From assembly GCA_021788025.1 (NCBI GenBank), contig JAJYLE010000006.1, forward strand, positions 1 to 33,228: a stretch of 33,228 nt of DNA. The letters run 5' to 3'. Position numbers and translations under genes: made by a program. A model generated the notes under the pieces. The model was not told the DNA's origin, did not search any database, and saw only the letters and a list, made by a program, of their open reading frames with translations. This document shows positions 3,551 through 29,575 of this stretch, piece by piece (the first letter of the stretch is position 1; the number at the start of each line of letters is the position of its first letter). This stretch comes from Nitrospirota bacterium (lineage in GTDB: Bacteria; Nitrospirota; Thermodesulfovibrionia; Thermodesulfovibrionales; JdFR-88).

Positions 3551-3940
3551 GCATGTATGACATTCTTCCCATTGACTATGTCATGCATAACTGCGTTATG
3601 ATGGGCTACAGTGGGGCTCAGCCCCCTCTGGTGCCCTTTGAAAGCGGCGGCGGAAGGCTTCCTTAAAAATCCATTTGCTTTGCTTCCTTTTTGCTCTTTA
3701 ATACATCACCGATCCGCTTGGCATCCAACAGCAAATCAGCGGGGGAAAAAACAATAAAAACAAAGACTTGGCAAATGGAACAAACTTCAGGGGACGGAAA
3801 CCCCAAATCCTTTAAAATCATGCACTTAGACATACAACAAAGCTGGGAAAAATGGAACAGACGGAACAAAAATTATTACCCTAACCTGCTAAAAACAAAA
3901 GAAAATTCCGAAATGGCTGGAACATATAAAAAGAAAGGGC
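3551..3940 (-). repeat. Dispersed intergenic repeat family A, copy A1
   Basis: Reverse complement shares ordered blocks with 16135-16640: CTTTTTATATGTTCCA(G/C)CCATTTCGG, TTTTTGTTCC(G/A)TCTGTTCCAT, CTAAGTGC(A/T)TGATTTT, CTTTCAAAG.GCAC, GCATGACAT.GTCAAT.GG-N-ATGTCAT. Confidence 0.75.
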
Positions 3941-15096: not shown

Positions 15097-15281
15097 AATC
15101 CCCTCACTCAGCTTATAATTCAGCGCCCCCCTTGCTTCTGTCATCTCTCTTTACATTTGGCCATCGTCAGTTGCCCTCTAATTTTTTTGCGGGGACGGTA
15201 TTCGCCTCCGCTTCCCCAGATACGGCAAAAGCAAAGGTAATTCTGTAATGATTTAAATAAGCAACATGACGCTATTTTGGG

Positions 15282-15420
15282 CTCTTCAGGCTTCCCTGTG
15301 GGTAAAAAGGGCCCTTGTATTAGCCGTTTGGGTTTGTCTTTGAAGCACCTGGCAATGCGGGAGCGGTTAGTGAGTGCAGTGGGCCGCGCGTGCGTGCGTC
15401 TGCAAGCGCCCTACCATAAA
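15282..15420 (+). repeat. Dispersed intergenic repeat family B, copy B1 (divergent)
   Basis: TCAGGCTTCCCTGTGGGTAAAAAGGG...AGCCGTTTGGGTTTG...GGCAATGCGGGAGCGGTTAGTGAGTGCAGTGG aligns to B5 TCATGCTTTCTTGTGGATAAAAGGG...AGCCGTTTTGTTTG...GGTAATGCGGGAGCGGCAAGTGAGCGAAGTGG. Confidence 0.75.
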
Positions 15421-15530
15421 CAGCTCCGGCGCGAGTAATGCCGCAGCTATTTTGAGACAAGTTCTAACATTTCTGATAATTAAAATTTGAAGTTGACAGG
15501 GCCTTGCCATTTCTGGTTTTTTATAAGCTG

Positions 15531-16134: not shown

Positions 16135-16640
16135 TGCCTTTTCTTTTTATATGTTCCACCCATTTCGGGATTCCCTTTTGTTTCCAGCCACTTAGGAGCA
16201 AATTTTTGTTCCATCTGTTCCATCTTTCGCGCTTGTTCTTCACATCTAAGTGCTTGATTTTTAAAGAATTGAAGTTTTTAGTTGAATCAAGCTGGGACCA
16301 AACCTGGAACAGCGCCAAATACCTGTTTTTACGTAGTTTTTTGGTTTTGTGATCTTCACTTTTTACTTTTGCCGCCACCCCGGCGCAGGGCCGGTGCGGA
16401 TCTCCGCGAAAAGCCGCTTCCACCGGGATCCAGCAACTTTGCCACCGGCCGCCATTGCGAGGCCCAATCGACCACGTCAATCCCGCAGTTTGCCGTTTTT
16501 ACTTTCGCAGCCGTTTTCAAAGAGCACATGTGGAGTCCCATCTTGGGAAAAGGTGGCCGAAAGCCGGGGTGTTGCCCTCCCCTACCCCGCCCATCTTAAC
16601 CCGGCACTGCATGACATTGTCAATTGGCGCGATGTCATGG
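16135..16640 (+). repeat. Dispersed intergenic repeat family A, copy A2 (longest)
   Basis: Shares with A1 a 28/29-nt match (16140-16168 versus reverse complement of 3908-3936), the tandem GTTCCATCTGTTCCATC, CTAAGTGCTTGATTTTTAAAG, TTTTCAAAGAGCAC, and the terminal GCATGACAT-N-ATGTCATG. Confidence 0.75.
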
Positions 16641-21514: not shown

Positions 21515-21567
21515 CAGATCTCCTTTTTAACGCATCGATTTCAAACCGTTTTAATAATAACAGGTTA

Positions 21568-21712
21568 TTCAGGCATTCGTGTGGAGAAAAGGGGTTTTCC
21601 TCATAAGCCGTTTTGTTTGTTTTTGAAGTACAGGTTAATACGGGAGCGGCAAGTGAGTGGAGCGGCCTGACGAGCCATACCGGACGTTTGGCGCAGAGAT
21701 GGCCCAAACCAT
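21568..21712 (+). repeat. Dispersed intergenic repeat family B, copy B2
   Basis: TTCAGGCATTCGTGTGGAGAAAAGGGG...AAGCCGTTTTGTTTGTTTTTGAAGTACAGGTTAATACGGGAGCGGCAAGTGAGTGGAGCGGCCTGACGAGCCATACCGGACGTTTGGCGCAG; close to B5. Confidence 0.88.
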
Positions 21713-24959: not shown

Positions 24960-25115
24960 ACGGCTGGCGGGGCATCTTGCCGGAGTCCGGGCGACCGCCC
25001 GTCGCCGCTTGACTACCGGCAGGTTCGCCGCGCCCACTTCGCGAAACCGCCCGCTTTCCCAAGGTAAGGCAAACCAACAGCTAACAAACGGAGTCCTTTT
25101 AACTACAAAAATTCC
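24960..25115 (-). repeat. Dispersed intergenic repeat family B, copy B3 (inverted relative to the others)
   Basis: Reverse complement GTAGTTAAAAGGACTCCGTTTGTTAGCTGTTGGTTTGCCTTACCTTGGGAAAGCGGGCGGTTTCGCGAAGTGG aligns to B4 GTGGTAAAAAGCTCCTTTATTGGCCGTTTGGCTTGCCTTACCCTGGAGCAGCGGGGCGGTGGTGAGCGAAGTGG. Confidence 0.75.
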
Positions 25116-28229: not shown

Positions 28230-28294
28230 CCTCCTCCTCTATAAAAATTCTATAATGGCAAATAAGGCTGGCTAGTTCAGATATTGCGTTTTTA

Positions 28295-28515
28295 TAAATG
28301 CCCTTTTCCGTGGTAAAAAGCTCCTTTATTGGCCGTTTGGCTTGCCTTACCCTGGAGCAGCGGGGCGGTGGTGAGCGAAGTGGCCGGGCGAGCCGTACCG
28401 GACCTTTGGCGCAGCGTTGGCAGTTTGCCGTATTCATGTGAGCCGCGCGGCAAAAACCCGAATTTAATCGACCAGAGACGGGGCCAAACGGAGGCGAACG
28501 CCGCCCGTGGGAAAA
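28295..28515 (+). repeat. Dispersed intergenic repeat family B, copy B4
   Basis: 28371-28456 (86 bp) is identical to 29429-29514; flanking modules also similar to B5. Confidence 0.93.
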
Positions 28516-28699
28516 AAACAGAAAGCAAACTGGCATTGGCAAACGAATCAAGGGTGACAGAACCGAAGCCTCTGGCCTCCGGCTTTCGCCGGGGTGAGTG
28601 CCATTGGGAGCACCACACATAACAACAGGAATCCCGGAAGAGCCTTATAAAGTTTGATACGGCAGGCAGAGGGGTGCGCCAAAGACGGGAACAGGCGGC

Positions 28700-29284
28700 C
28701 TATTTGCCCCTGATCCACCAATCGCTTTTGTCCGAAAACCACCACAGGGAGGAGTCCGTCTCCAGGATGTCTGCGGCCAGTTTCCTGGCAACGCCAGTCC
28801 GGAGGCGCTTCATTGAAAAGCCAAGCCATTCTTCGGCATAAGGCGAGCCGGTGTCCTTGTATTCCTTCAGGGCCAGGATCATTTCAAGCTGGTCGGCATC
28901 ATAGGCCAGCACGGCCTCCTTCGTCTGTCCAAGCTCGAATTCCTTTATAAGCAAGCTAAGCTCATCCCCAAACGGCACACCGGATGCAAGCTCAGCCAGG
29001 GCCTTTTCGTTGTCCACCTTAACGTATTTCTTGTTTACGTAGTTAAGGTCGCCGGTGCGGGCCTCAAGCAGGTCGTGAAAAAGGCACATCCTCAGAAGCC
29101 GGTCCCTGTCAATTGTCCCCTCTCCGGCCGCCTCGCTAAGAGAGCCTAGGACAAAGCCTATGCAGGCGGTGCGGAAGGCGTGCTCGGCAACCGATTCGGC
29201 CCCGGCCCCCAGGAACTGGAAGCCGCTTCTGGGCGTGCGCTTGAGCATGCCCACTTCAAAAAGGAAATTGGCAATGTTCTTCAT
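28700..29284 (-). CDS. HD-domain phosphohydrolase (YfbR/HDDC2-like 5'-deoxynucleotidase family)
   Basis: SVAEHAFRTACIGFVL, CLFHDLLEARTGDLNYVNKKYV, AYDADQLEMILALKEY. Confidence 0.88.
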   Translation of the reverse strand: MKNIANFLFEVGMLKRTPRSGFQFLGAGAESVAEHAFRTACIGFVLGSLSEAAGEGTIDRDRLLRMCLFHDLLEARTGDLNYVNKKYVKVDNEKALAELASGVPFGDELSLLIKEFELGQTKEAVLAYDADQLEMILALKEYKDTGSPYAEEWLGFSMKRLRTGVARKLAADILETDSSLWWFSDKSDWWIRGK

Positions 29285-29345
29285 TGAAGCTATATTTTAA
29301 AACAAATACAAAAACAACGGCAGGAACAAAATAAAATTTGATTCC

Positions 29346-29575
29346 TCATGCTTTCTTGTGGATAAAAGGGATTTCTTTTAAAGCCGTTTTGTTTGCTTTT
29401 GGCGTACAGGGTAATGCGGGAGCGGCAAGTGAGCGAAGTGGCCGGGCGAGCCGTACCGGACCTTTGGCGCAGCGTTGGCAGTTTGCCGTATTCATGTGAG
29501 CCGCGCGGCAAAAAACCTTTCAATTAACGAAGCGAGACGAGGCCCAACCGTAGCGAACGCCGCCGCAAACCCACT
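29346..29575 (+). repeat. Dispersed intergenic repeat family B, copy B5
   Basis: 86-bp identity with B4 (29429-29514); GTGGATAAAAGGGATTTCTTTTAAAGCCGTTTTGTTTGCTTTTGGCGTACAGGGTAATGCGGGAGCGGCAAGTGAGCGAAGTGG closely similar to B2. Confidence 0.93.

Follow-up and report, generated by a model that had tools for sequence, protein, structure and literature searches.

What are the non-coding repeats that lie between the genes of this stretch of Nitrospirota DNA (the whole 33,228 bp analysed, hereafter the window), and why do two neighbouring ones carry an identical core? The original prediction described a dispersed family of five copies and offered two readings, a MITE/REP-like non-autonomous element or a structured RNA. 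The repeated pieces are a MITE family with no gene of its own. Below, we describe its structure and its copies, the insertion sequences that most likely move it, and the exchange of sequence between copies to which the identical cores point.

A MITE family with terminal repeats and target duplications

MITEs are short elements, under about 500 bp, that do not code for a transposase. Full-length copies of the present family are about 300–345 bp long (303–345 bp measured), likewise contain no transposase gene and differ from each other by frame-breaking indels, such as one of 8 nt in copy L034. Aligning complete copies together with their flanks brings out sharp element ends, the typical left end being GGCTCTTCAGGCTTTCCTGTGGG and the typical right end, read inward, GGCTTTACCGGGTTTCCTGTGGG (both judged by eye). 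Imperfect terminal inverted repeats of about 23 bp are seen directly in at least nine copies, as are AT-rich target duplications of 8 bp, which are perfect in six copies at five independent sites and agree at 7/8 positions in three more. Perfect duplications next to terminal repeats flank L031 (TTTTCTTT), L034 and its ortholog L032 (TAAATATA), L035 (AAAAAAAG) and L044 (TGAATTTT), and a 139-bp internal deletion derivative (L074/L126, G000:C2:10038-10176) has kept both ends and the duplication TTTATAAT; the 7/8 duplications belong to L041, L042 and L057, which also have terminal repeats.

The original prediction had proposed a comparison with orthologous empty sites, and three were found in the closest relative, Nitrospirae bacterium WY4.bin81 of the same genus (G001). 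There, the sites of L031, L044 and L074 each consist of a single 8-bp target with no element, the flanks aligning with an 8-bp overlap, which is direct evidence of insertion. Together with the terminal inverted repeats and the 8-bp target duplications, these empty sites bear out the MITE half of the first reading. L032 and L034 are one insertion, flanked by one and the same duplication, found in each of the two species; hence, some copies are older than the species split, and others are recent.

The copies fall into three subfamilies, which have in common the ends, a GCCGTTTGGTTTGCC-like stretch and the two arms of a long-range stem, while the interior of the stem differs. Type A copies and several of type B (L031, L034, L035 and others) carry a recurrent module, GATTCAGGCATAYCGGCGAACGCCGC, ahead of their right end; this module may be an independent small palindrome.

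The REP-like variant of the prediction found no such backing. REP and REPIN sequences are palindromes of about 20–40 bp, tied to a RAYT gene and without target duplication. Many copies do have GC-rich intergenic palindromic segments close to their 3' side, for instance CGGCGAACGCCG, as would be expected of REP/REPIN- or BIME-type repeats mobilised by a RAYT (IS200/IS605-like) transposase. However, REP is not supported because the elements are over 300 bp long and have transposon ends with terminal inverted repeats and 8-bp target duplications. The empty sites with their 8-bp duplications contradict such an origin as well, since IS200/IS605-like transposition is not known to duplicate an 8-bp target, and we regard it as extremely improbable.

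Copies in the window and in the source genome

Searching the window by blastn with full-length family members recovers copies at 15280-15445 (+), 21568-21704 (+), 24990-25114 (-), 28300-28644 (+) and 29340-29570 (+), so that the three places named in addition to the identical pair do carry related copies, and each of the five is located between main ORFs. The search also returns a sixth piece, a fragment of the 3' part of type C at 15134-15193 (-), and zero family matches in the reversed window used as a control. The boundaries given originally are not the true element ends: of the five copies, 28300-28644 alone is complete, the rest being truncated or decayed at the right end. Nor is the family confined to five copies, a restriction that would have counted against the original prediction. 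Two genome-wide searches, merged, place at least 46 loci of the three subfamilies on 34 contigs of the 2.53-Mb source assembly, a count that is a lower bound because several copies lie at contig ends; many copies are also present in G001.

The only full-length copy in the window (28300-28644, +, 345 bp) has the right terminal repeat GGCTCTTCCGGGATTCCTGTTGT, which is the reverse complement of its last 23 bp, and its left end is partly eroded. It can be aligned up to the right end with the type C copy L057 (18–342) and lies between the target-site duplications TTATAAAT (28292-28299) and TTATAAAG (28645-28652), which match at 7/8 positions. In the type B copy at 29340-29570 (+), the left terminal repeat, GATTCCTCATGCTTTCTTGTGG, can still be recognised, and the right end is decayed or deleted. 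Only the left part remains of a second type B copy (21563-21704, +), an ancestral insertion common to G001, and of a type C copy (24990-25114, -) that does not exist in that form in G001. The latter fragment is located between the start of an sdhA-like gene (24926, minus strand) and the gene upstream. At this site G001 has other sequence, apparently a different MITE remnant, and therefore the region upstream of the sdhA-like gene differs between the two species.

The type A copy at 15280-15445 (+) consists of the left 166 bp only, with an intact left terminal repeat, a missing right part and 99.4% identity to the full-length L031. It is flanked on the left (15271-15279) and on the right (15446-15454) by the same 9 bp, GCTATTTTG, comprising the 8-bp target duplication CTATTTTG and one more matching base. 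A perfect repeat directly at the truncated side of a copy this close to a full-length one could reflect one-ended transposition rather than later loss of the right part. However, a deletion up to the duplicated target after insertion or aborted excision would give the same product, this is the single such case seen, and the sequence to the left of the site is unlike that of G001, which therefore offers no clean empty site here. One-ended transposition is thus a possible but rather doubtful origin of this copy.

A second repeat family occurs in the window in inverted orientation, the segments 3798-3940 and 16136-16277 being 75–79% complementary in two adjoining blocks. A GGTTGGAACAAATGGAACAACAATTTGG stretch beside copy L025 (G000:C97) may belong to it, judged by eye only.

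As far as tested, the MITE family is confined to a single Nitrospirota genus; one other genus of this bacterial family gives faint matches. Among 61 genomes, the matches outside the genus are three weak partial ones in a single genome of that other genus (G009), and an exact 20-base core pattern matched only WY4.bin81 in a genome collection that may omit the genome of the window. The three loci in G009 (L033, L036 and L039) are short matches to the GTATTCATGTGAGCC core. One of them, L039, has ends beginning GGCTCTTCAGAG and GGTTCTTTCGGG that are 289 bp apart and lack a matching duplication; it is perhaps an old relative of the MITE.

Probable mobilisation by ISL3-family transposases

The ends of ISL3-family insertion sequences begin with GG, are about 15–39 bp long and are accompanied by an AT-rich duplication of 8 bp. 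The MITE ends fit this description in their GG start, their length and their 8-bp AT-rich duplication. G001 encodes an ISL3 transposase (PF01610, E 7e-63; 369 aa, no stop), which is flanked by the ends GGGTCTTCGCCCAACCGAGTGGG and GGGTCTTCTCCAAAGTGAGTGGG and the 8-bp duplication AATATTCG. This element (G001:C37, around 43863-44585) resembles the MITE in its approximately 23-bp ends (GGxTCTTC...GTGGG), its 8-bp duplication and the presence of GTGGGTAAA at the inner edge of one end. Unlike the MITE, ISL3-family elements are about 1.3–1.4 kb long and carry a transposase gene.

The similarity of the ends can be observed directly. When the left 45 bp of L031 are aligned with the left end of the G001 element, the alignment, which takes in GTGGGTAAAAA at the inner edge of the repeat, beats 2000/2000 shuffles; for the left end of L035 the match is weaker (16/2000 shuffles as good), and the right end of the MITE, compared alone with the right end of the same element, shows no significant similarity. 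ISL3 matches are present in 43/177 genomes of the order. Three of the four ISL3 elements with located ends match the MITE ends at 13–18 of 23 positions, namely L146 (18/23 on both sides), L136 (15–16/23) and the G001 element (13–15/23; 13–14/23 in the test applied to the other two), and the fourth, L132, matches at 11/23. L136 and L146 are both ISL3 elements of the same order, and their ends were located without reference to the MITE. Most other fetched ISL3 loci yielded no end pair with a duplication by the same scan, and no autonomous ISL3 element with exactly the MITE ends was found among the fetched loci of the order. Among the fetched loci there was likewise no candidate transposase gene between two MITE ends with a matching duplication, and a search with the terminal-repeat pattern returned many two-mismatch matches, few of them new MITE ends. 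The interior of the MITE has no evident similarity to an ISL3 element; therefore, a simple origin by deletion from such an element is not demonstrated.

Other transposases were considered as mobilisers and rejected: no IS1595 transposase was found in five genomes of the bacterial family, the genome of the window has neither IS256 nor IS66 transposases, and the loci of these two in G001 show no MITE-like ends.

From the shared ends we infer that an ISL3-family transposase most likely mobilises the MITE. We hypothesize that the element, having no transposase, would be mobilised in trans by an ISL3-family enzyme that recognises the approximately 23-bp ends and probably also the GTGGGTAAA motif at their inner edge, and that its targets would be AT-rich stretches of 8 bp, which in this window lie between genes in every case. 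Homologous exchange (gene conversion) between dispersed copies would then swap the inner cores, producing both the identical 86-bp core and the variable tails. Taken as a whole, namely a non-autonomous family moved in trans by an ISL3-family transposase into 8-bp AT-rich targets, with inner cores swapped by gene conversion, we hold this account with high confidence. The ISL3 transposase gene of the window's own genome (L101, G000:C179:10321-11041) is broken by stops, the open copy being L100 in G001, and the species of the window may therefore no longer be able to mobilise the MITE.

Identical cores and the question of a structured RNA

The 86-bp tracts at 28371-28456 (+, within copy 28300-28644) and 29429-29514 (+, within copy 29340-29570) are identical, as originally reported, and the match stretches to 89 bp at 99%. 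The next-best relative of this core in the fetched DNA is 87% identical. The same two insertions exist in G001, with flanks 90–96% identical and elements only 67–70% identical; in these orthologues the left ends of the elements are kept and the cores are different. The four other copies common to both species are 87–95% identical. Given that the flanks of both insertions are conserved in G001 and the cores are not, the best reading of the 86-bp identity, from comparison of the two genomes, is recent gene conversion between neighbouring copies 1,058 bp apart; this reading draws on two of six shared sites and hence on a small sample. Functional constraint on the core fits poorly, since the orthologous cores differ.

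Alternatively, the family, while spreading as MITEs, might also carry in its conserved core a functional structured RNA or an mRNA-level regulator kept by host or element. The long-range inner stem is indeed kept in the subfamilies with double-sided changes, GGGCCGCG/CGCGGCCC in type A and GGGCGCGG/CCGCGCCC in type C (read by eye after moving one gap), and the arms of each copy pair better with each other than arms shuffled over all copies (0/5000 shuffles as good). Within subfamilies, however, arm pairing is weak (743/20000 shuffles as good, with labels that split type A by one base), so that compensatory changes are clear between subfamilies A and C and weak inside them. The covarying changes amount to few independent events, and conversion can homogenise hairpin arms. 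Folding energies also lie within the range of shuffled sequences (z -0.27, -1.41, 0.03 and -0.81), and the comparison with Rfam that the original prediction had suggested gave no match to a curated family: no part of the window reached the gathering score, and at a relaxed E-value the full-length copies produced just one match, far below the threshold. On these three counts, Rfam, folding and limited covariation, the structured-RNA half of that prediction is not borne out, and an additional role of the core as an RNA appears improbable. We read the stem as palindromic ancestry with some homogenisation, which does not establish an RNA. We give equally little credence to a scheme in which fixed MITE copies serve as sites of repeated exchange of inner-core modules between dispersed copies, the long-range stem being kept by compensatory change and the core being functional as RNA or single-stranded DNA.

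Relation to known MITEs and implications

In Microcystis aeruginosa PCC 7806, a 187-bp MITE with the end GGCTCTTCG and 8-nt repeats has been attributed to ISL3 (PMC11448079). That element and the family described here both lack a transposase, have an end starting with GGCTCTTC and 8-nt direct repeats, and occur in tens of mostly intergenic copies alongside similar-ended ISL3 elements in the same genome (PMC11448079). Our family is longer (300–345 bp), comprises three diverged subfamilies and resides in a Nitrospirota host, and the two are likened by their ends and repeats, not their interiors. A MITE of Methanosarcina acetivorans, associated with ISMac21 of the ISL3 family, is alike, by description only, in its ISL3 attribution and, on our reading of the table columns, in its inverted repeats of about 22 bp and its duplication of about 7 bp, and differs in its length of 179 bp, its 6 copies and its archaeal host (PMC3852290). 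QMITE2 of Coxiella burnetii shares the architecture of terminal repeats (23–29 bp), direct repeats (7–9 bp) and a non-coding stem-loop core, but this core is shorter (113–145 bp) and the review in question mentions no ISL3 link (PMC10969869).

MITEs moved by ISL3 elements have thus been published before; the family described here is new and so far belongs to one Nitrospirota genus. With its ends, target duplications and empty sites mapped, a conspicuous unannotated repeat of a little-studied Nitrospirota lineage is explained, and one more family joins the few ISL3-associated MITEs reported so far. Nearby copies may have identical cores without any functional constraint on them, as local exchange between copies looks alike.
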